Source: Candidatus Doudnabacteria bacterium (GTDB lineage Bacteria > Patescibacteriota > JABMPQ01 > JAGQLO01). From it: a stretch of 32,632 nt of DNA. The DNA lies in contig JAGQLO010000003.1 in assembly GCA_020429185.1 (NCBI GenBank), positions 1 through 32,632 on the forward strand, written 5' to 3'. A model generated the notes under the pieces. It had not been told where the DNA came from. It did not search any database and saw only the letters and a list, made by a program, of their open reading frames with translations. A program made the position numbers and the translations under genes. Positions 417-22,173 of this stretch are shown one piece after another; the first letter of the stretch is position 1; each line of letters begins with the position of its first letter.

Positions 417-3400
417 TTAGAGCGCTCCTGATGCGACGTTCGTTCCCACACGCAGGTGTGACGGGTATGGGAAGAAGTTCATCAGTTCACTTGCATCTTC
501 TGCAGAGAACACACGCACGTGTGGTCCTCCTCCCACTCCTGGAGCCGTGATGATCTCCAGAGATCCATCGAGGTTCATGTCCCCTCCTGCCACCTTTGTA
601 CCTGTGCGCAGACGGGAGTCGAAGGCCATGAAACTAGAGAGGAGGTTCGCGTTCTTATCGTAGACGTGCACCTGTGGCCCACATCCTTGGCCTGCACCAA
701 CAATGATCTCATCGGCTCCGTCTCCATTGAGGTCACCGCTTGTTGGGAAGGCTCCACAGCGCAAGCTGCTTGGGAAGGCGAAGAAGGTTGAAACCTTGTT
801 CGTGTTTTCGTCGTAGACCTGTACCTGTGGTCCATATCCTTCTGCTGGCGATACGAGGATTCGGTCCTTGTTGTCTCCTTCCGTGTCGGCAGATCCGAGA
901 TGGAGACCCATTCGAAGCGATCCAGAGTATGGGAAGAAGGTCGACAGAAGGTTTGCATTCTCATCAAAGACCTTCACTTGCGGTCCACCAGCGCTTGCTG
1001 GAGCAACGATGATCGAGTCTCGACCATCTCCGTTTGTGTCGGCTGTTGCGACTGTCACACCACCACGGAACCCAGCTGGGAACGCCATGAAGCTTGAGAG
1101 AAGGTCACCGTCCTTCGTGAAGACCTTCACGTGTGGACCACCATTCCCTGCTGGAGCCGTTACGATTTCGATTGTGCCGTCTCCATTTAGGTCACCTGTT
1201 GCCACATTCACACCCGTTCGCAGGCTCGAGTCATAGGCAAAGAACGAGGAATTCTTGTTCGTTTCCTTGTCATAGACGTGAACCTGTGGACCAGATCCAA
1301 CACCAGAACCTGTCACAATTTTGTATGGAACAGTGTTTCCAGACTGGATCGATCCAACCGACGACGTCATGGCGAAGGTCGTAAAGTGGTTCGTCTGCTG
1401 CGTAATCGTGTTGTTGTCCAAGTCCTGCGTCAAACCGTTCGGGAACTTCCACGTGCTTGTTTGCTCGTCGAAATACTTCGGTACAAGCGATTCTTCTGTT
1501 ACACCAAGCTCCTGAAGCTGCTCGTCTGTGTACACGAAGGTGATGGTCACGTCCGAGTTAAAGTTTGTGATCTCGTTCTGACTTGAGTCGTACGCAGTCA
1601 ATTCGTATCCGATTCCAAACACCTGGTTCGATGCGTCACGGAACACGTTTACCGTTGGCTGTGCGGTCACCGTTACATTCTCCTGCTCTTCAGACAGCGC
1701 ACCACCAGGAATGTTAATGGTTGTCCCGTTGTCGAGTGTAATTACCTGCGTTTCCGAAGCATCGAAGGTCTTCGTTACTGCGGGTGGAATGTCGAATGAC
1801 GAAGTCGAGAGTTCGAAGTCCTGAGACTTAGAGGTGTCGCTTGAAGAGATGTTGATGATCACTTCATCTGAGCGCAGGAAGTCTGTTCCGTTAAATGAAT
1901 CAGCTCCACAGTGCCAGATACCTTCTGCGTAGTTCACGGAGTAGTTTCCATTGAAGTCCACTTCCCCTCCCGTAAATCCACCACGCTCGTTCCAGCAGTG
2001 AACGAATCCGAACGGCATTGTGGATCCGTTGAAGGTCACCTCACCTGTCATCGCTCCAAGCGCTTCTCGCAACTTCATGTTTACGGTCGCACTTGTTGAA
2101 CCGTCACGCATGTCGACATCCACGAATGCTGGTGGCAGCAATGTGCTCTCTGGCGGAAGACCAGCTCCTACTTCCCAGAGTTCGTTCGTTACCACATCGA
2201 TCGTGAACGTTCCATCTTCTTCTGTTTCATTTCCTGTAAAGAGTTGGTTTTCGAAGAAGTCCTTGTCGAGACCTCCAGACTCATCCAATCCCTTTCCATT
2301 GTGAGCAAAGACGAAAGCACTTACCCCTTCTCCATCAGGACCGGTCATCGTTCCTGTGATCTGTGCGTTTGCTCTGACGGCTCGAATGTTCAAGTCGAGA
2401 CTTGCGTTTCGTGCCACTTCCACCTCGCTGAACTGGTGCTGCTCAAGGAAACCGTTACCAGGTTCGATGAAAAATCCTTGGTTGTACGTCTTTCCACCAA
2501 GTACCGTCAGCTCATAGGTACAGTCGGAGCGGATTGGTGATCCATTCCATCCAGCGCCCGGAGCTTCAAGGAAGACGTCACCAAAGAATCCGAATTGTCC
2601 TTGTGACACACATGATTCAACGGCATTTCCATTCTGGTCAACAAGCTTACCGGATACTGTGGCATCCTTTAGGGCCACACGAATGTTCTTACTCACTGTC
2701 GTGTCAGCAAGGACTGCCACGCGTTGTTCACCAAGCGATGCATAACGCGACTCTGGCGGAGTGTGCATCCCCAGCGTGTACGAACTTGCAATCTTCGAAG
2801 GCACCTTGATACTGAATCGACCGCTCTGACAGTTCACTGGACCACCGTAGTTTGGCCCTCCATGGAAGCCTTCTGCACCTGTTGCGTTCGTTGCTGGCAC
2901 GGCAAATGCCCAGGCACACATTCCAACCGTGTTTCCGTCTTCATCCACCAAGCTTCCCTGGATCGTTGCGTCTGCTTCGATCAGTTCAATTGTTCCTACA
3001 TCTACGCGGTCTTCTTCTCCTTGAACATCAACATCGATCGGAGGACCACTGTAAACGAAGCTCGAGTTTTGTCCCTGGTCGATGTCGAGTCCCTTCCGAC
3101 CCGTCGACGTTGGGATTTCGAAACGTCCTGCTGAGTCTGTTGTGGCGTTTGAGAAACCGCCTCCAGGTCCGTGACCGAAGAGGTTGAGTCGAATTCCTTC
3201 AAGTGCAGTTCCCTCTTCGTTTGTGACTGTACCGAAGACGCGCGCCTTGTTTTCACGAGCTCGAATGTCCCCAATATTGTTTGTACCCTGTCGCACTTCA
3301 ATCTGTCGCTCAGGGAATGTGAATTGACCACTGTCCGTGAAGATTCCAAGACGATAGGTTCCCTTTGTTGTTGGGATTTCGAAGCGTCCGTCTGGGTTCA

Positions 3401-5036
3401 ATGGAGCTCCTGTTCCACCCGCTTCACTAAAGAGGTCCACAAATCCTTGTCCGTACGGCGTCCCATTTGGAAGGATTGCACGACCTGTTACAACAGCGTT
3501 TGTTGTTACCACCTTCAGTGCAACGCTCTTTGTTTCTTGGTTATTGTTTGAACTGAATGTCACCTGTTCTCCAAATCCTCGGAAGACCCAGCTAGGCGTT
3601 GCACCAAAGTCTGCTGGACTCACTCGAACTTCCCATGTTCCACCACCAACCGCGAGTGGCGAAGTAAGACATCCGTTATTTCCGACACGACCTTCTACGA
3701 AGGAACCACCACCCGCCTGAAACGCTTCTACTCGAGCATCCGTTACCGCCTGTCCGTTCTCCCGCTTCACACATGCGTTTATAAACTTCACCGCCTGTTG
3801 GTACTGCAAGTTCACCGTTTGTTTGCTTCCAGAAGCCGTTACTGTTCGTGGACTTGGTGCCACGAGTCCCGCACCCTCTTCTCCCCATGGAATACGGAGC
3901 TCCAATACATACTGAGTTCCAGCAATCAGACCGCCGAGGTTATATCGTCCGTTTTGGTCTGTCTGGGTAAACGCGTGCGATGACCAGTCTTCTGTGTGAA
4001 TCTCAACAGGTGCATTTGCCATCGCCTGACCTTCTGGGTTTTTCACCACACCACTGAACTGCGCTGTTGTAAGCTTAATCGTTCCAGCGTTGGTTACTCC
4101 AGAGCTTCCTACGACAACCGTCTTTTCTGTGGAATTTGTGTATTCTCCTCCAAATACCTGTGCCTGAATCTGGTATGTTCCCGCTGGAACCCCTCCAAGT
4201 ACGAACGTTCCGTTACAGTTTGCATTTACGAATTTGTCGAACGAGCGATCTTGCTTGAAGATCTGCACACTCACCTGCAACTGCCCCTCTTCGCCTACGA
4301 GTGCGCGACGCTCCGGCTCTCCACCCTGTGAACACACGTCAGGCGCGTTCAACACGGTTCCATCAGGTCGGGTAACCGTTCCCGTAAGGTTTGGTGACAC
4401 CAATGCCACATTCCCAAGGTTTGTTGTGCCACTCGCTGCCACGGTTACTTCTCGCTCGGAAGCTGCAAGCGATGAGCCTTGTGGTGGGCGTGCCTCTAAC
4501 AAGTACGTTCCTGCTGGAACCGCCCCAAACTTGAAGGTTCCATCGTCGCCCACATTTGAAAACAGGTTCACGGTAAAGTCGCGCGTACGCAAATCTACCG
4601 TTCCCCCGCCTACGACTGCCCCCTGAGGGGTAACGATTGTTCCGGTCACATTTGGCACCACCAGCGAAATAGATCCAACATCCTTGTTTCCATTCACGCT
4701 CACAAGAACAGGAGCTGGGGGCGCAAAGTTGCCATTTCCCCCGTAGTTGATTTCGATTTTGAACTTTCCGAGCGACTCCACGCCCACACTAAACGTTCCA
4801 TCTTGTTGTACAGGCCCACTCCCTCCACCAGGACCACCTTGCTCAGGATCAATACGGACTCCACAAGAAGTACAAACTGCTCCCCCAGGAAGAATAACCC
4901 TTCCTGAAACAGTGGCTACCGCCACCGCCTCTGCGGTTTGGGTAAACATGGCTGGAACGCTAACTACTACCGCTAACGCGAGCGTAGAAAGTCCGGTTAG
5001 AACGTAGGTTAGGCGGCGTCGTGCGCGCTTCGTCAT
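417..5036 (-). CDS. Giant secreted protein: Ig-like/carboxypeptidase-regulatory repeats plus FG-GAP propeller
   Basis: This 1539-residue protein is predicted to be exported. Residues 1-37 are an Arg-rich n-region, a hydrophobic core and an AEA-like signal peptidase site. From about residue 40 to 1080 there are tandem units of roughly 80-110 residues. They open with V-S/T-G-x-V-x-x-P-x-G and contain D/N-G-x-F-x-h-x-x-V-x-x-G-T-Y, the pattern of carboxypeptidase-regulatory-like (prealbumin/SdrD-B-like) beta-sandwiches. Residues about 1080-1230 form a different beta-rich domain with a NIPGGAL motif, vaguely ZU5-like. Residues about 1234-1539 are six FG-GAP-type blades with GPQVxVYD strands and calcium-loop motifs such as DLNGDGTIE. 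One blade (DTEGDNKDR) is degenerate. The first strand YKIVTG would complete the truncated last blade, suggesting closure of the propeller. No C-terminal membrane or LPXTG anchor is seen. A surface adhesion or matrix role is inferred only. The start is the ATG preceding the signal peptide; no Shine-Dalgarno site precedes it. Confidence 0.85.
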   Translation of the reverse strand: MTKRARRRLTYVLTGLSTLALAVVVSVPAMFTQTAEAVAVATVSGRVILPGGAVCTSCGVRIDPEQGGPGGGSGPVQQDGTFSVGVESLGKFKIEINYGGNGNFAPPAPVLVSVNGNKDVGSISLVVPNVTGTIVTPQGAVVGGGTVDLRTRDFTVNLFSNVGDDGTFKFGAVPAGTYLLEARPPQGSSLAASEREVTVAASGTTNLGNVALVSPNLTGTVTRPDGTVLNAPDVCSQGGEPERRALVGEEGQLQVSVQIFKQDRSFDKFVNANCNGTFVLGGVPAGTYQIQAQVFGGEYTNSTEKTVVVGSSGVTNAGTIKLTTAQFSGVVKNPEGQAMANAPVEIHTEDWSSHAFTQTDQNGRYNLGGLIAGTQYVLELRIPWGEEGAGLVAPSPRTVTASGSKQTVNLQYQQAVKFINACVKRENGQAVTDARVEAFQAGGGSFVEGRVGNNGCLTSPLAVGGGTWEVRVSPADFGATPSWVFRGFGEQVTFSSNNNQETKSVALKVVTTNAVVTGRAILPNGTPYGQGFVDLFSEAGGTGAPLNPDGRFEIPTTKGTYRLGIFTDSGQFTFPERQIEVRQGTNNIGDIRARENKARVFGTVTNEEGTALEGIRLNLFGHGPGGGFSNATTDSAGRFEIPTSTGRKGLDIDQGQNSSFVYSGPPIDVDVQGEEDRVDVGTIELIEADATIQGSLVDEDGNTVGMCAWAFAVPATNATGAEGFHGGPNYGGPVNCQSGRFSIKVPSKIASSYTLGMHTPPESRYASLGEQRVAVLADTTVSKNIRVALKDATVSGKLVDQNGNAVESCVSQGQFGFFGDVFLEAPGAGWNGSPIRSDCTYELTVLGGKTYNQGFFIEPGNGFLEQHQFSEVEVARNASLDLNIRAVRANAQITGTMTGPDGEGVSAFVFAHNGKGLDESGGLDKDFFENQLFTGNETEEDGTFTIDVVTNELWEVGAGLPPESTLLPPAFVDVDMRDGSTSATVNMKLREALGAMTGEVTFNGSTMPFGFVHCWNERGGFTGGEVDFNGNYSVNYAEGIWHCGADSFNGTDFLRSDEVIINISSSDTSKSQDFELSTSSFDIPPAVTKTFDASETQVITLDNGTTINIPGGALSEEQENVTVTAQPTVNVFRDASNQVFGIGYELTAYDSSQNEITNFNSDVTITFVYTDEQLQELGVTEESLVPKYFDEQTSTWKFPNGLTQDLDNNTITQQTNHFTTFAMTSSVGSIQSGNTVPYKIVTGSGVGSGPQVHVYDKETNKNSSFFAYDSSLRTGVNVATGDLNGDGTIEIVTAPAGNGGPHVKVFTKDGDLLSSFMAFPAGFRGGVTVATADTNGDGRDSIIVAPASAGGPQVKVFDENANLLSTFFPYSGSLRMGLHLGSADTEGDNKDRILVSPAEGYGPQVQVYDENTNKVSTFFAFPSSLRCGAFPTSGDLNGDGADEIIVGAGQGCGPQVHVYDKNANLLSSFMAFDSRLRTGTKVAGGDMNLDGSLEIITAPGVGGGPHVRVFSAEDASELMNFFPYPSHLRVGTNVASGAL

Positions 5037-7262: not shown

Positions 7263-8198
7263 CTACTCGCGAAGATGCAGAGTGACGTCCACGGCTACAT
7301 AGTTGTCGAGATTAGCGGTTCCGGAGCCACCGCGTCGGATGGGGTGACGAGCGATGATCTCCTCGTCGGCACCTCCCCACGTGACGTAGTTCGAGTCCAC
7401 AACGTCGATTCCGGTTGCACTATGTCCCTCACGACCTTCCAAGACTCGCACGACCACAGCAACGTGACCATTCGAAGTCTTCGTGAACAGAACATCGCCC
7501 GGTCGCGCCTGACTTGCCGGTTTCGTGAAGGAACGCCTTCCGTTGAAATCGTTCCGAACTTGCGTATAGCTCGGGAGCATGCGCTCCGGCACGCCGGGCA
7601 ACTGGAATCGGACTCCGCTCCGATAGAGCACGAGCTCTGCGAAGTAGAGACACTGACCTCCACGACCACGACCACCAAAAAACCCGTAGTTTCCGACGTT
7701 GTCGTAGAAGCTGTTCCCACCCATACGCTTGAACGGACCACCGTAGCAACCAAGGTTGCATGCACCGTTTGAGGTCCAGAGCGATGAGCAGCACCCCAAG
7801 TGCAGAACTCCACGGCGATACGCGTTCCAGTCACTCGCCAAGTAGTTCCAGTCGCTCACGGTCATACCATTGAGCTTCGGAACTCCTGATCCACCATCAT
7901 GTGCCCGGCTGAGCGCGTAGAATGCTTCCAGCTTGATCGCCGTTCGAGGATCCCGATGAAGGCGCTTCTCCACAAACTCTGACCCCTCTTCGTCTTGCTC
8001 AATGCAGATGTTGTCATCTGGCATCTCACAGATCCGAATCTCGTCATCCCACTCGACATCATTGTCGCCTGGATGATGATAGACAGTGATCCGTTCATCC
8101 TGATCAGCCTCATACCCGGATGCTCCCTCCTGGGGATTCCCGCATCCGAGTGCGAAGCTCATCACGAGCACGTAAGACAAGCGGCTCGAATTCTTCAT
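7263..8198 (-). CDS. Cysteine-rich lipoprotein with CHAP-type hydrolase domain
   Basis: The protein has 311 residues. The N-terminus MKNSSRLSYVLVMSFALGC fits a lipoprotein signal peptide with lipid-modified Cys19. Residues 20-130 are acidic and unfamiliar. A Cys-rich patch (CC at 136-137, C147, C151) precedes a C-terminal domain resembling CHAP amidases/endopeptidases. The putative nucleophile is C183 in GGQCLYFAE, followed by RPGDVLF, then H245 in GHVAVVV, and D268/N270 in VDSNY. CHAP enzymes cut peptidoglycan cross-links, or in some cases glutathionylspermidine. The start has a clear Shine-Dalgarno site (AGGAG, seven bases before ATG), which most neighbours lack. The gene stands alone between terminators and is flanked upstream by a palindrome-rich stretch. 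It is probably an acquired cell-wall hydrolase acting outside the cell, possibly on another organism's wall. Confidence 0.65.
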   Translation of the reverse strand: MKNSSRLSYVLVMSFALGCGNPQEGASGYEADQDERITVYHHPGDNDVEWDDEIRICEMPDDNICIEQDEEGSEFVEKRLHRDPRTAIKLEAFYALSRAHDGGSGVPKLNGMTVSDWNYLASDWNAYRRGVLHLGCCSSLWTSNGACNLGCYGGPFKRMGGNSFYDNVGNYGFFGGRGRGGQCLYFAELVLYRSGVRFQLPGVPERMLPSYTQVRNDFNGRRSFTKPASQARPGDVLFTKTSNGHVAVVVRVLEGREGHSATGIDVVDSNYVTWGGADEEIIARHPIRRGGSGTANLDNYVAVDVTLHLRE

Positions 8199-8730
8199 CT
8201 CTTTCTCCTATGTCCAAGGTACAGACCTCTCTTGACCGGCTATGATCCCACCATCATAGCCGGTCGCGAGCTTTATGAGAGGTCCGAGGTGAGGATTGCC
8301 TGCCCTATCAAACAGTCCCCACTTCGGACATCTCATGTATCAAACCGAACCTAGCCAAACATCATCATCGTCTGCACGCCTATCGGCACTATTCAGGGGA
8401 TAGACAGTGGGACGAGATGTCCCACTGTCATTTGGAGACCACGTGCGCTCCCCTGCGAGGATGCTTCCCACACATTCCCCTCCTCCGCATGCGCTCGTAG
8501 CTGGCAGCGATCTCTGCAATTGAGATGCCATCAACCCGTTCCGTGACGGATTCAACGCAGCAGTGAGATTGGCTCCGTGGGGGTGCCTATGCGTAAGTTT
8601 GCATAGGCGAGCGGAGCAACCCCCACGGAAACAACCTCGTCGACCCCATATCCATTTCTTCCCATCGTTCATATGAGGTGGCTCGTTTTTTTATTAGGTG
8701 GCTCACTTCTGATTTAAGGGGTAACAACGC
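8199..8730. other. Non-coding stretch with a cluster of inverted repeats
   Basis: No convincing gene is seen over about 530 bases. The stretch holds at least five strong inverted repeats. (1) 8234-8246/8253-8265 has 13 perfect pairs, enclosed by 8224-8231/8277-8284 with 8 pairs. (2) 8282-8294/8317-8329 has 13 positions with one mismatch and one wobble. (3) 8403-8413/8419-8429 has 11 perfect pairs. (4) 8502-8506/8526-8530 encloses 8511-8514/8522-8525. (5) 8574-8584/8619-8629 has 11 perfect pairs and encloses 8585-8592/8601-8608 with 8 perfect pairs. None carries a following T run, so they are not ordinary terminators. They could be a structured RNA, the long leader of the CHAP gene, or recombination sites. 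Confidence 0.55.
8676..8704 (+). repeat. Direct repeat AGGTGGCTC, two copies 20 bases apart
   Basis: AGGTGGCTC occurs at 8676-8684 and 8696-8704, exactly two helical turns apart. It lies just beyond the 3' terminator of the histidine kinase gene. The core AGGTGGC also occurs twice at 11807-11824, at the other end of the same signalling module. Confidence 0.5.
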
Positions 8731-8776: not shown

Positions 8777-10726
8777 TTAAGCAGTCTCCTCTGCTTTCGC
8801 GGTCTCAGCTCTGAGAGGTATCTCCACAAAGAATGACGATCCCCTTCCTACCCCATCAGACTCTACCCACACACGGCCACCATGTGCCTCAACAATCTTC
8901 TTGATGATAAACAGCCCAAGACCGGAGCCATTTGCATTTATCTTGGCGCCCCCACCAGCTCGTACGAACTTCCCGAACAATTGCTGCGCATCTGCCTCAT
9001 CGAGTCCGATCCCTGTGTCTCGCACCTCAATCTTGAAGACTTTTCTTGTGGCAGAAGGGATGATCGTGATTCCTCCTTCTTTCGTGTACTTCGAAGCATT
9101 ATCGACGAGATTCAGAACAACCTGACGCATCTTTTCTTCGTCGATAACAGGATTTGGAAGCTTTCGATTTGGCTTTTCTACACTCAATGTGAGGCCCTTG
9201 CGCTCTGCCTCTTGGCCTAGCGTTCGAACAACGTCTTCGATCATTGCCATCATGTCTGTTGGTGCCTTTTCTAGATTCAGGCGACCAGCTTCAATGCGAG
9301 ACACATTCAGGAACATGTCGATCAGCTTCACAAGACGCTCTACATTCAGCAGATTCATGTCGACAATCTCCTGTTGCTTTGTCTCCAGCTTTCCAAAGTC
9401 CCCTTCTGCCAACATCGACAGGTAGCCTTTTATGCCACTAATAGGTGTTCGCAACTGATGAGACGTAATCGAAAGGAAGTTGGATTTCGTTTCGTCGAGA
9501 CGCTTTAGGTATTCATTCTTTTCTTCCAACTCTTCCGCTTTTTCTTCAATGATCTTATACAAACGTGCATTCTCGATCGCAAGACCCATGTTGTTTGCAA
9601 ATGCCATCATGAGGTCGCGCTCACGATCAGTAATAGTATGCGGGTTTCGGTTTGCGAAGAACACAAAGGCTCCCACAACTTCCCCTCGTACTACCATTGG
9701 CACAGAGATAATCGTACCTACATTCATCGCCTTTTGCGCCGCTCGTGCAGCACGCTTTGGCACGTACGGAGCTACAAACTCTTCTAGCTCGTCGCTCATC
9801 TGAATCTCCCGCGTCACAATCGAACGCCCGATCAGCGTACTTGGATTTGCTAAATCAAGTTGCTGCGTAAACTCGTTGAGCGGTTTTCCAATGATATCGA
9901 GCGCTTTTTCTGTAATCGGAACACGTGTGATTGTTCTTGGAACAACCTTGCTCGATTTCATGTCGTAGTCCACGATCAAGCCCGCGACAAACTCAAGGTG
10001 CTTGAGCTTCTCTGGAACCGCATTCACAATATTCTGTGCTACCTCGTTTGGCTCAAGCGAGCGAATGGCTTGCTGCGTAACGGTAAGAAGTGAACCGAGA
10101 TCCTTCGTTTTTGCGTCGAGCTCCTCTACCTGGTCCTGAACGCGTGAGTAGAGGCGGGCATTATAGATAGCAATAGATATCTGGTCGGAAAAAAGCTGCA
10201 TTAGTTTGTTTTCCTCTTCTGACAGTGAAGATTTTTTTACATGAAACATCCAAGCACCTATTGTCTTTGAACCGTATTTTAAGGGATATGAAATCGTGAG
10301 TTTCATTCTTGTCATCCTCTGTATTACATCTGCAGTTCTAGCCGAAACAGTCGGAACAATAAAGTCACTCAACTGCACACTTCGAAAACTTTTACCCTCC
10401 GCAACAGTTCTTCCGATCAGGTTTTCCGGATCGATAATTGGTGTAGTGTGCTCAGTAATCGGTTTGTCTAATTTTTCAACTGCTCGCTTAATCAACCGGG
10501 TATTAGAAACTGTATGACTGTAGACTGTGCCGCTCTTTTGGTTGGCTAAGAATAAAGTTCCACCAAGATATCCAAAAAGCTCCACGATGCTATCGACAAT
10601 TTTCTGGGTCACCTCCTCAAGATTCAAATCAACAACAATTGTCTCATTCACTTCCTTAAGTGTCGCAATCTGCCTCTTTAGCCACTCATTTTCTGTTTGC
10701 AAATTCTTGACTTCTATTTTTTCCAT
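8777..10726 (-). CDS. GAF-GAF sensor histidine kinase (soluble)
   Basis: The protein has about 649 residues from the ATG at 10726. A TTG three codons upstream overlaps the preceding stop and is the alternative start. An N-terminal coiled coil leads into two GAF domains (about residues 35-195 and 222-390), each followed by a helix ending in ARLY. A coiled-coil linker follows, then a HisKA domain with phospho-acceptor His423 in TSHQLRTP. The HATPase domain shows the N box (NLVDNASKYT), G1 (DTGIGL), F box (FGKFV) and G2 (GSGLGL). No membrane segment is seen, so it senses cytoplasmic signals through the GAF domains. No receiver or response regulator is adjacent; the nearest is the pilus-operon regulator at 26148. 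It is coupled to the upstream all-helical protein gene and divergent from a GAF-RHH regulator whose GAF resembles its first GAF. The first third of the gene is visibly more AT-rich than the rest. Confidence 0.88.
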   Translation of the reverse strand: MEKIEVKNLQTENEWLKRQIATLKEVNETIVVDLNLEEVTQKIVDSIVELFGYLGGTLFLANQKSGTVYSHTVSNTRLIKRAVEKLDKPITEHTTPIIDPENLIGRTVAEGKSFRSVQLSDFIVPTVSARTADVIQRMTRMKLTISYPLKYGSKTIGAWMFHVKKSSLSEEENKLMQLFSDQISIAIYNARLYSRVQDQVEELDAKTKDLGSLLTVTQQAIRSLEPNEVAQNIVNAVPEKLKHLEFVAGLIVDYDMKSSKVVPRTITRVPITEKALDIIGKPLNEFTQQLDLANPSTLIGRSIVTREIQMSDELEEFVAPYVPKRAARAAQKAMNVGTIISVPMVVRGEVVGAFVFFANRNPHTITDRERDLMMAFANNMGLAIENARLYKIIEEKAEELEEKNEYLKRLDETKSNFLSITSHQLRTPISGIKGYLSMLAEGDFGKLETKQQEIVDMNLLNVERLVKLIDMFLNVSRIEAGRLNLEKAPTDMMAMIEDVVRTLGQEAERKGLTLSVEKPNRKLPNPVIDEEKMRQVVLNLVDNASKYTKEGGITIIPSATRKVFKIEVRDTGIGLDEADAQQLFGKFVRAGGGAKINANGSGLGLFIIKKIVEAHGGRVWVESDGVGRGSSFFVEIPLRAETAKAEETA

Positions 10727-10731
10727 CCGTT

Positions 10732-11787
10732 TCAAACGTGTGATAACTCTCTCTCAAATTTTACATCAGCTCGATCAATCAATCGAGCATAATGCTTTTC
10801 AGTCATTAACCTCAATACAAATCTGTGAAAATCTGCGTCTCCCCTCATTTTCCCCACTAAGCTAGATTCATATTTTTCAACCTCCTCCCAGCCCCAAGCA
10901 ACAACTCTTCCAACTCCCTGGAGTATATGATCACAAGTCATACCGCTAGCGTTGTATTTTGCTTCACATTTCCCCAGATAGACAAACAGTAAGTTGTTGT
11001 CATCGCAGTAGATATCTCTTTTCACCCTCAGCATTGAATCGAGTGCAATATTCACAGCAGAAAGGGCACTATAAACTTTTCTCAATTCAATCATTTCAGC
11101 ACTTCTCATCACCTCAACTCCAATCAGGAAGTAAGCGTAGAGAGGCGTATTCCAAGAGAAGAACAATTCCACGAGATCAATGTCCTGTAGCTTTTTTTCT
11201 TCGGAAAACTTCCTAATCAAATCCAATCTGTCCCCGGAAGGTGCTACGGTTACCTCTTGTGATGCGATGTACTTATCTAGAACAACACATATTTCTCGAC
11301 GCACCTCTGGCTTCAATTGAAGCTTTTTGTGGGCTCTTTGAGAGCTTTCATATAAATTCGCGAGAAATTTTTCTGAGACTCGAATATGAGTCGCAAGTTT
11401 TCGAATATCTTCTGATCGAAATTCCCGACAACCACTCAGTCCGTATAGAAAACTATGTACTACTTTCACTCTCCCTGACTGAGAAGAAGTTTGATAAGTA
11501 TCCCTATCGTCAATTATCCAATCTGCAATATCACAAAATCCCTGGATTAGGTCTATTAGCCTTTGTGCAGAACTCAACCTCTCCCTATCCACTCTCCCCA
11601 ATGCGAATATTGCTGCCCCCAATCGGTTTGGCCTGCGCCTAAAAAGCCTGTTTTGAATATCCTTATCAGCGAAACCCATAGCTATAGATTCCGCTTCGGT
11701 TAATCCGAAACCAAACATCTCTACTATTTCGCTGTAGCCATCCGCCAAATACTTAGTACTATCTATACTTGACACATCTACTTTCAT
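10732..11787 (-). CDS. Unidentified all-helical protein with Asp-rich motifs, possibly class I isoprenoid-synthase-like
   Basis: The protein has 351 residues from the ATG at 11787; an ATG ten codons further upstream is possible but less likely. It is predicted mostly helical, with no signal peptide. Two acidic motifs stand out. The first is CDIADWIIDDRDTYQ near residue 90. The second, about 155 residues later, is VNIALDSMLRVKRDI followed by YCDDNNLLFVYL. Their order, spacing and the LDxxxxxKRDxxxxDxNL layout recall the two metal-binding helices of class I terpenoid synthases, especially the DUF2600/YtpB type. The resemblance is by eye and weak, so the function is not assigned. Its stop sits five bases before the kinase ATG, so the two are translationally coupled. 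The gene is AT-richer than its surroundings. The start region carries an AGG four bases upstream, a poor Shine-Dalgarno site. Confidence 0.6.
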   Translation of the reverse strand: MKVDVSSIDSTKYLADGYSEIVEMFGFGLTEAESIAMGFADKDIQNRLFRRRPNRLGAAIFALGRVDRERLSSAQRLIDLIQGFCDIADWIIDDRDTYQTSSQSGRVKVVHSFLYGLSGCREFRSEDIRKLATHIRVSEKFLANLYESSQRAHKKLQLKPEVRREICVVLDKYIASQEVTVAPSGDRLDLIRKFSEEKKLQDIDLVELFFSWNTPLYAYFLIGVEVMRSAEMIELRKVYSALSAVNIALDSMLRVKRDIYCDDNNLLFVYLGKCEAKYNASGMTCDHILQGVGRVVAWGWEEVEKYESSLVGKMRGDADFHRFVLRLMTEKHYARLIDRADVKFERELSHV

Positions 11788-19450: not shown

Positions 19451-19735
19451 CTACTTCACTGCTCGCACTTCAATTGTATCCGTGTCGCGACGTGGCGCCT
19501 GGTTTAGAATGGCTTCACGGTCTTCACACGTCTCAGATACATCATGACGCGCAATGTTTGTGAGGCCTGTCACTTGTGCTGTTGGCGGCACGCCTTCAAC
19601 GTCTTCCTCTTGAAGACGTTCGACAAATGTCAGAATCTCAGCCAAATCCTCGCGGAGTGGTTCGATTTCCTCTTGTGTTAGCCGAATACGCGCCAACTTT
19701 GCAATGCGCTCGACTTCTTCTCGTTCAAGTTTCAT
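19451..19735 (-). CDS. gatC: Amidotransferase subunit C
   Basis: The protein has 94 residues, the standard GatC size. MKLEREEVERIAKLARIRL is the typical first helix. LREDLAEILTFVERLQEEDVEGVPPTAQ and a DVSETCEDREAILNQAP tail follow. GatC wraps around GatA and GatB and stabilises the complex. It is first in the operon. The promoter at 19744-19771 leaves almost no leader, so the mRNA is probably leaderless or nearly so. Confidence 0.95.
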   Translation of the reverse strand: MKLEREEVERIAKLARIRLTQEEIEPLREDLAEILTFVERLQEEDVEGVPPTAQVTGLTNIARHDVSETCEDREAILNQAPRRDTDTIEVRAVK

Positions 19736-19743
19736 ATGTGCTT

Positions 19744-19771
19744 AGTGTACGCGGTTTTTGTGAGGGTGCAA
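19744..19771 (-). promoter_or_regulatory. Promoter of the gatC operon, giving a leaderless or near-leaderless mRNA
   Basis: TTGCAC (19771-19766), a 16-base spacer and TACACT (19749-19744) are read on the minus strand. Only eight bases separate the -10 from the gatC ATG, so transcription should begin at or within a few bases of the start codon. Confidence 0.65.
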
Positions 19772-19794
19772 TTGCAGAAACTGATCCACACCCC

Positions 19795-20072
19795 ATCTCG
19801 TACGAAACGTCAAAAACTGGTATTACTTATCTGTGGTTTCTCGCATCCCGCGCGTTTTGCGCGGACTGCACCTTCCCTACATTCCGTCTCGTGAGCGTTC
19901 GCGCCGGCGGGCCTGTGTCGTCAACAGTCGCAGCGCCACGAACGAGACAGGGCGGGTCCCCTTCTGGATGATCAAAGGTGGGGACGGGCGTTCTTTTGCC
20001 CACCGCTGCTGAGAGTCGCCTCCAAAACCTGTGGCGACCTCTCACGGGATGCGTACTCGTTTCGCCAGAGAT
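19795..20072. ncRNA. Candidate structured RNA of unknown family (multi-branched fold)
   Basis: No gene is seen in 19736-20148. Nested long-range pairing closes the region. ATCTC (19795-19799) pairs with GAGAT (20068-20072). After a symmetrical 3x3 internal loop, CGAAACG (19803-19809) pairs with CGTTTCG (20058-20064). Inside, CGCATCCCG (19842-19850) pairs with CGGGATGCG (20045-20053). Within that lie five hairpins in series: 19848-19853/19859-19864, 19886-19892/19942-19948, 19956-19961/19980-19985, 19986-19989/19998-20001, and 20011-20020/20033-20043 (10 pairs, one bulge). The strand is uncertain. The plus strand ends in a strong terminator (20105-20141), which favours plus, but no clear plus promoter was found. 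RNase P, tmRNA, SRP and T-box signature sequences were sought and not seen. Confidence 0.5.
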
Positions 20073-20104
20073 CGACCGTAAGACTGAGGCTCTGTGTGAA
20101 ACAC

Positions 20105-20141
20105 AAAAAGCGACCATGCTGTTCTCGGCAGGTCGCTTTTT
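20105..20141. terminator. Bidirectional terminator after ligA
   Basis: AAAAAGCGACC/GGTCGCTTTTT form an 11-pair stem around a 15-base loop, with T runs on both strands. It lies eight bases after the ligA stop on the minus strand. On the plus strand it could end the candidate RNA at 19795-20072. Confidence 0.85.
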
Positions 20142-20148
20142 GGTTGTT

Positions 20149-22173
20149 CTATCGACCAATTCGCTTGAGAAATGCTTGTTCTGAAATTGTCTCGACGCCT
20201 AGCTCCTGTGCCTTTTTTGCCTTTGATCCAGCATTTTCTCCAAGAACCACAAGGTCGGTTTTTGCGCTTACTGAAGCCGAAGCCGTTCCTCCCTCTCTTC
20301 GGACTATTTCCTTGGCTTCGTCGCGTGAGAGTGTCTCAAGTGTTCCAGTAAATACAACCGTCATGCCCGCAAACTTTCCTCCAGCTACTGCTTTCTCGAA
20401 TGGCTCTACCGTCACACCATGTTCCGCAAATGCATTCAGAAGCTCCACTGTTTCCGGTCGTGCAAAGTAGGCTGAAATACTGCGCGCCACAACGCCGCCA
20501 ATGTTTTCTGTGTGTACAAGCTCGCTTTCTGTTGCTGCGGCAATCGCCTCTAGCGAACCAAATGCTTCCGCAAGATCGCGAGCTGTTTGTTCTCCAACGT
20601 GACGTATCGAAAGTCCCACCAAGAAGCGCGCAAGAGGAATAGTGGTGCATGATTGCACTGCACGCACAAGATTCTCTGCTGCCACATCGGCAAACCGCTC
20701 GAGCGGAGTGAGCTGTTCCACGGTAAGCGTATAGAGATCTACTGGTGTTTTCACAAGACCTTCGGAAACAAGTTGCTCCAGAATCTGCGGTCCAAGACCG
20801 TCAATGTCGACTGCCTTTTTCGAAACGAAGTGTGAAAGTTCCTCTAGATGACGTGCCGGACAATTGAGATTCGTGCACTCGTGTCGTGCGTTATCAGGAT
20901 CACGCGCGACCTTCTGACCGCACGCCGGGCAACTCGTTGGGAATGTAATACGCTTGGCGTTCTTTGGTCGTAGATTCAGCAATGGTTCAACCACTTCTGG
21001 AATCACCTCCCCCGCTCGTTGCACAATCACTGTGTCACCGATGCGTACGTCCTTCCGTTCAATTTCATCTTGGTTGTGCAGGGTCGCATGCTTCACGATT
21101 GCTCCAGATACTTCTACGGGTTTGAGAATCGCGACAGGAGTTATGGCGCCCGTACGCCCAACCTGAAACTTCACATCTTCGAGAATGGTCGTCGCCTGTT
21201 CTGCTGGATACTTGTACGCTATCGCGCCACGAGGAGCTTTTCCCACGATTCCCAAGCGTTCAAATATCTCCACCTCATTTACCTGAACCGTTAAGCCATC
21301 TGCCGCGAGTGGTTCTGATTGGTGCTTGCTTTGTTCGCGACGATAGATCGCCTCTACCTCCTGCAGAGTCGTCGCAACTTCACCCACTGGAGCATCTTTG
21401 AATCCAAGTGCGACGGCGAGTTGATGTGCTTCTTCATGACGCTCGAATGTATGACCTTCAATCAAGACATTCCATGCATAAAAGTCGAGCTTTCTCTCTG
21501 CCGAGAGTGTTGGATCCAGTTGCCGTAACGCCCCCGCAGCTGCGTTACGCGGATTCATCAGCACTGGCTCTCCCGCCTGTTCTAGCTGCGTATTTAACTC
21601 AGCAAATGTACTACGAGCCATAATGGCCTCTCCTCGTACCTCAATACGCTTTGGCAGGGACGTAAACTGTCCTGGCAGATCCTCTACCCGTAGGCGCAGT
21701 GGGATGGCGTCGATGGTTTTGAGGTTTTGCGTAATATTCTCCCCTACCCGACCATTTCCACGGGTCGCGCCTCGCACAAACACTCCATCTTCGTACAACA
21801 ACGATACCGCGAGTCCGTCGAGCTTTGACTCCACGAAATACGTCCAGGACTTCTCTTGTTTCAGAAATCGTTCCATCCGCTGCTCCCATCCTTCAAGCTC
21901 TGAGATCTCGAACGCATCGGTAAGTGAAAGCATGCGCTCTCCGTGCTCTACTTTTTCGAACTTCTCGAGCGGTTGTCCCCCTACACGCTGTGTTGGTGAG
22001 TCAGGTGTAATGAACTCTGGATACGCATTCTCTAGCTCTTGTAGCTCATGCTTCAGCGAGTCGAGCGCTGCATCTGAAATCTCAGGCGCATCAAGCACGT
22101 GATAGAGGTAGCGATGACGCGCCACCTCTGTGCGCAACTGTTCTATGCGTTGTTTCGCTTCTTGTTTCGTCAT
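20149..22173 (-). CDS. ligA: NAD-dependent DNA ligase
   Basis: The enzyme has 674 residues, full length for LigA. It seals nicks in DNA using NAD+, in replication and repair. Domain order is visible: the N-terminal Ia domain with the YHVLDAPEISDAALDSL helix; adenylation motif KLDG with Lys117; RGEAIM and KYPAEQ nucleotidyltransferase motifs; and an OB fold. A C4 zinc finger (CPACG, CTNLNCP) follows, then helix-hairpin-helix repeats (IDGLGPQ, IRHVGEQTA, ENIGGVVA). The C-terminal BRCT domain holds FTGTLETLSRDEAKEIV and EGG. The gene is divergent from a metallophosphoesterase with about 20 bases between the two starts. Confidence 0.98.
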   Translation of the reverse strand: MTKQEAKQRIEQLRTEVARHRYLYHVLDAPEISDAALDSLKHELQELENAYPEFITPDSPTQRVGGQPLEKFEKVEHGERMLSLTDAFEISELEGWEQRMERFLKQEKSWTYFVESKLDGLAVSLLYEDGVFVRGATRGNGRVGENITQNLKTIDAIPLRLRVEDLPGQFTSLPKRIEVRGEAIMARSTFAELNTQLEQAGEPVLMNPRNAAAGALRQLDPTLSAERKLDFYAWNVLIEGHTFERHEEAHQLAVALGFKDAPVGEVATTLQEVEAIYRREQSKHQSEPLAADGLTVQVNEVEIFERLGIVGKAPRGAIAYKYPAEQATTILEDVKFQVGRTGAITPVAILKPVEVSGAIVKHATLHNQDEIERKDVRIGDTVIVQRAGEVIPEVVEPLLNLRPKNAKRITFPTSCPACGQKVARDPDNARHECTNLNCPARHLEELSHFVSKKAVDIDGLGPQILEQLVSEGLVKTPVDLYTLTVEQLTPLERFADVAAENLVRAVQSCTTIPLARFLVGLSIRHVGEQTARDLAEAFGSLEAIAAATESELVHTENIGGVVARSISAYFARPETVELLNAFAEHGVTVEPFEKAVAGGKFAGMTVVFTGTLETLSRDEAKEIVRREGGTASASVSAKTDLVVLGENAGSKAKKAQELGVETISEQAFLKRIGR

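Follow-up and report, generated by a model that had tools for sequence, protein, structure and literature searches.

What occupies the gap between gatC and ligA in this bacterial genome, and does it encode a structured RNA? The window analyzed here is the whole 32,632-nucleotide stretch of DNA (contig C33:1-32632) from a 0.91 Mb genome of 44 contigs with a GC content of 50.6%. The top matches of ligA have at most 50% identity and come mostly from genomes labeled 'Candidatus Parcubacteria' or 'Patescibacteria group', which points to the Patescibacteria. Two open reading frames overlap the gap, 19827-20159 on the minus strand and 19576-19971 on the plus strand. A protein-coding gene was rejected, as neither frame has a Pfam match. 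The outermost pairing arms within the gap resemble 15-bp imperfect terminal inverted repeats. A mobile element was also rejected, since the gap sequence is present in a single copy in the genome, and no target-site duplication was seen.

Table 1 Features of the ligA-gatC gap and its surroundings (positions in the window).
Feature	Position	Strand	Basis or remark
gatC	19451-19735	-	GatC PF02686 (Pfam)
Gene-free gap between gatC (-) and ligA (-)	19736-20148		413 nt; ORFs and Pfam
Predicted gatC promoter TTGCAC-16-TACACT	19771-19744	-	Score 8.25, above shuffled median 6.2, below 95% point 8.9
Candidate structured RNA core	19795-20072	+ favored, strand unproven	MFE -112.5 kcal/mol, z -2.9
Outer closing helix, 5' arm	19795-19809	+	Inverted repeat I3
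Inner 9-pair helix, 5' arm	19842-19850	+	Inverted repeat I8, 9/9 pairs
Hairpin 1, GCGC stem, five-base loop	19850-19862	+	MFE
Long branched hairpin GUCUCGU...ACGAGAC	19884-19951	+	MFE; inverted repeat I1
Three-way element, GCGG closing two hairpins (GUCCCC/GGGGAC, GGGC/GCCC)	19952-20006	+	MFE
Hairpin UGAGAGUCGCC...GGCGACCUCUCA	20010-20044	+	MFE
Inner 9-pair helix, 3' arm	20045-20053	+	Inverted repeat I8
Outer closing helix, 3' arm	20058-20072	+	Inverted repeat I3
Intrinsic terminator, bidirectional	20104-20142	both	Inverted repeat I4, 100%; U-runs on both strands
ligA, NAD-dependent ligase	20149-22173	-	Pfam

The core of the gap is predicted to fold into a multibranched structure closed by two long-range helices. 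The outer helix forms 12 of 15 possible pairs, arranged as five and seven pairs around a 3x3 loop. The inner helix is nested within the outer one, and the MFE structure of 19795-20072 contains both helices together with the hairpins inside them. The layout described in the first-pass annotation, with its 5+7 closing helix, 3x3 loop, inner nine-pair helix and nested hairpins, is present among the inverted repeats and in the MFE structure. The minus strand of the core folds to a similar MFE of -112.3, with a z of -2.95. The outer helix has a mean probability above 0.9 when the core is folded alone. With longer flanks added, its probability is 0.0-0.26 on the plus strand and varies from 0 to 0.78 on the minus strand, where it reaches 0.4-0.78 in several contexts.

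It is a substantial possibility that the gap encodes no functional RNA and is a GC-rich, lineage-specific spacer, perhaps the remnant of a decayed insertion or gene, in which a genuine bidirectional terminator is accompanied by chance pairing picked for its orderly look. The nested long-range helices argue against such a spacer. A pair of this kind occurs in two of 2000 dinucleotide shuffles of the gap, five of 2000 random genome windows, and two of 165 intergenic windows, including that of the gap 19736-20148 itself, although these counts are post hoc, with the criterion taken from the find itself. The core is also richer in GC than is usual for non-coding sequence in this genome: its GC content is 58.6%, compared to 48.5 +/- 4.5% in 149 clearly non-coding windows, which is 2.3 SD above their mean and matched by one of the 149. 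The lack of a protein family for the overlapping reading frames and of a second copy in the genome likewise speaks against the remnant of a gene or insertion.

The folding energy, in contrast, is what a spacer of this genome may have. We surveyed 485 windows from 194 predicted spacers, some of which are in fact coding because the crude gene caller used for the survey misses GC-rich genes. A z at the level of the core (-2.86 or lower) was found in 112 of the 485 windows, and in 31 of the 243 that are free of terminators (13%). The reference RNAs of the same genome have lower values, -5.0 for rnpB and -4.0 for tmRNA, versus -2.9 for the core. The fold of rnpB is strand-asymmetric (-5.0 sense versus -1.7 antisense), whereas that of the core is equal on both strands. 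The window 19868-20148 has a z of -5.6, ranks ninth of 485 and is level with the tmRNA windows (-5.3), largely because it includes the terminator. The core fold is ordinary among the spacers of this genome, and its orderly nesting is only moderately unusual there. The first-pass annotation considered the layout very unlikely to arise by chance; the nested helices are indeed rare in shuffles, but the claim was overstated, since the z of the core is common and the outer helix is sensitive to flanking sequence. Taken together, the fold, helix rarity and GC content are suggestive of a real RNA, but not conclusive.

Two other regions of the genome are notable. The spacer at 8172-8451 of the window, located between a CHAP-domain ORF (7263-8198) and a GAF/histidine-kinase ORF (8777-10735), folds much more strongly than the ligA-gatC core (z -7.1 on the plus strand and -6.4 on the minus strand). 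It contains the long hairpins GACCGGCTATGAT..ATCATAGCCGGTC and GACAGTGGGAC..GTCCCACTGTC, with CCGTGGGGGT..ACCCCCACGG just beyond it, has no Rfam match, and is single-copy in the genome. At ~2830-3450 of locus L126 (G000:C21) lies a GC-rich (~64%), apparently coding island that escaped a gene caller based on the codon usage of the remaining genome. The island reads like a methyltransferase-type ORF beginning ATGGCGACTCTTCAGGAAGTG and is perhaps foreign.

The terminator stem downstream of the core is a perfect 12-mer (20104-20115/20131-20142). It ends ligA on the minus strand and would end any plus-strand transcript of the gap. The strong plus-strand terminator reported by the first-pass annotation is thus present; however, because it is bidirectional and positioned directly behind ligA, it gives no strand information, and the strand cannot be assigned from it. 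Promoters were scored using a model trained on the regions upstream of the tRNA, rnpB and tmRNA genes of the same genome, for which the best hits in shuffled sequences have a median of 6.2 and a 95% point of 8.9. The predicted gatC promoter is credible because of its exact placement before gatC. It would start transcription almost at the ATG, which implies a nearly leaderless gatC mRNA. Since this promoter is downstream of the structure, the structured region lies upstream of it and is probably not a gatC leader. The model identified no promoter in the gap fitting either end of the candidate RNA on either strand. The best plus-strand site of the genome's usual type has a score of 4.4, below the shuffled median, and is misplaced.

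Transcription of the structure from the minus strand, either as a separate RNA from ~20074, just past the ligA terminator, or as the 5' leader of gatCA, is improbable. The core folds equally well on this strand, the outer helix is better held in several of the flanked contexts, and a weak site, TTTTTG-17-CAGTCT at 20109-20081, would start a transcript at ~20074. The score of this site is, however, only 3.5, again below the shuffled median, and the better promoter is the one directly before the gatC start, downstream of the structure. Furthermore, the stretch from the core to gatC yielded no terminator on the minus strand.

BLAST identified no homologues of the region in the 58 nearest genomes or in 380 genomes of the phylum. 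The sole match (L105, E 0.008, 36 bases) is located inside an apparent DNA topoisomerase I gene and was rejected as chance. A single-sequence covariance model (R1) detected no homologue in the 380 genomes, 35 ligA loci, or the genome itself, with a best score of ~12 bits, which is at chance level. The searches also gave no homologue among 80 ligA loci, no similar sequence in phages and plasmids, and no match of two exact 20-mers from the region to viral contigs. The ligA-gatC gaps of six same-order genomes and of ligA loci from GTDB vary in length and content, and none contains anything similar. They measure ~90 bp in G006, 225 bp in G004 and 1026 bp in G003, where the gap is filled by an unrelated membrane-protein-like ORF. 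The comparison of gaps proposed in the first-pass annotation yielded no homologous gap, and the candidate is represented by a single sequence.

The lack of homologues and promoter, the absence of the region from same-order relatives, and the equal fold of the two strands fit the reading of the gap as a spacer. A genuine lineage-specific RNA would, however, also be expected to go undetected beyond the family, because a single-sequence model reaches near relatives only and the searched set contains no same-family genomes. For the proposed new RNA family, these searches of a set without same-family genomes provided no members, and the label is unproven. It is doubtful that the region encodes a large structured RNA of a new class, restricted to a single family of Patescibacteria, unrelated to the families in Rfam, and transcribed independently between ligA and gatC.

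The inspected loci contain two other known or candidate RNA elements. The ligA-gatC gap of G004 (L015 1563-1788) encodes a different small candidate RNA with a promoter-like site TTGACA-17-TAATAT, an 11-pair hairpin GGTGGGCTCGG..CCGAGTCCACC, and a terminator. This candidate has no Rfam match and resembles nothing among the loci compared. A Paceibacterota contig with both ligA and gatA has a group I intron (RF00028, 70 bits) at L089 12720-12949.

The Rfam search of both strands of the gap with cmscan, at gathering score and at E up to 10, produced chance-level matches only, in agreement with the first-pass annotation, which had found no signature of RNase P, tmRNA, SRP or T-box RNAs. The genome encodes its rnpB at G000:C11:61818-62250 (208.6 bits, covariance model) and its tmRNA at G000:C4:17644-18046 (99.4 bits), both outside the gap. 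Within the gap, ARAGORN and cmscan were negative for a tmRNA with a tRNA-like domain and tag ORF, and no covariance-model match to an RNase P RNA with the P4/CR core was obtained at E up to 10. Matches of the minus strand to T-box or other Rfam leaders of gatCA are at chance level, far below gathering scores. 6S RNA has no covariance-model match in the gap or the genome. The small and large SRP RNAs (RF00169, RF01854) were found in neither the gap nor the whole genome. Nor was the Ffh M domain, which binds SRP RNA, found in the genome, so one would not expect the gap to hide a cryptic SRP RNA. A literature search on structured RNAs in this bacterial group provided nothing useful. The size and multibranched form of the candidate would suit a highly diverged RNase P, tmRNA, SRP RNA, 6S, group I intron or T-box. 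Such an origin is very improbable, given that no Rfam match to these families was found on either strand, that rnpB and tmRNA are on other contigs, that SRP RNA and the M domain were not found, and that the candidate is unlike the long hairpin of 6S.

The SRP searches extend beyond this genome. This genome and 19 related Patescibacteria gave no match to SRP RNA (RF00169, RF01854) and no SRP54 M domain (PF02978) scoring above the cut-off, and the M domain is present in 14 of 14 control genomes. Judged from these searches for SRP RNA and the M domain, the SRP appears to have been lost, or to have diverged extremely, across the lineage.

We narrowly favor, over an incidental or decayed spacer, the interpretation that the gap encodes an orphan, lineage-restricted, stand-alone plus-strand structured ncRNA of ~280-360 nt, to which we assign a probability of about 0.4. 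The rare nested helices, high GC content of the core, reading frames without Pfam matches, strong fold of 19868-20148, a terminator that closes the plus strand, and gatC's own promoter, which argues against a leader, are consistent with such an RNA. The absence of homologues in the collections searched and of the region in same-order relatives, the lack of a usual-type plus-strand promoter, the ordinary, strand-symmetric core fold, and the loss of the outer helix with flanks count against it. From the sequence, we infer transcription, its strand and 5' end, and any function as follows. The plus-strand transcript would begin within the spacer, pointing away from the gatC promoter, and stop at the bidirectional terminator common to it and the convergent ligA. 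Its four or five hairpins would form a multibranch domain held by the outer and inner long-range helices. We speculate that the RNA acts in trans or as a scaffold. If it is real, a reduced Patescibacteria genome would carry a large RNA that belongs to no established class, and a free-standing RNA of 300 nt in such a genome would probably do something important. For now, the case is mainly a measure of how much trust the folding of one sequence deserves.

The candidate RNA shares features with several known bacterial RNAs. It resembles RNase P RNA (RF00010) in size class and in having long-range closing helices around several hairpins, and tmRNA (RF00023) in being a stand-alone structured RNA with a comparable fold z once the terminator is included; however, the gap matches neither family, and the genome has both genes elsewhere. 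The large form of bacterial SRP RNA is similar in length, but SRP RNA is rod-like, whereas the candidate is multibranched and has no match to RF00169 or RF01854. 6S RNA is a single long hairpin, unlike the candidate. The bacterial orphan ncRNAs of the OLE, ROOL, GOLLD and raiA type are large, multibranched and located in gaps. In contrast to the candidate, which is one sequence without an Rfam match, these RNAs are defined by many covarying homologues.
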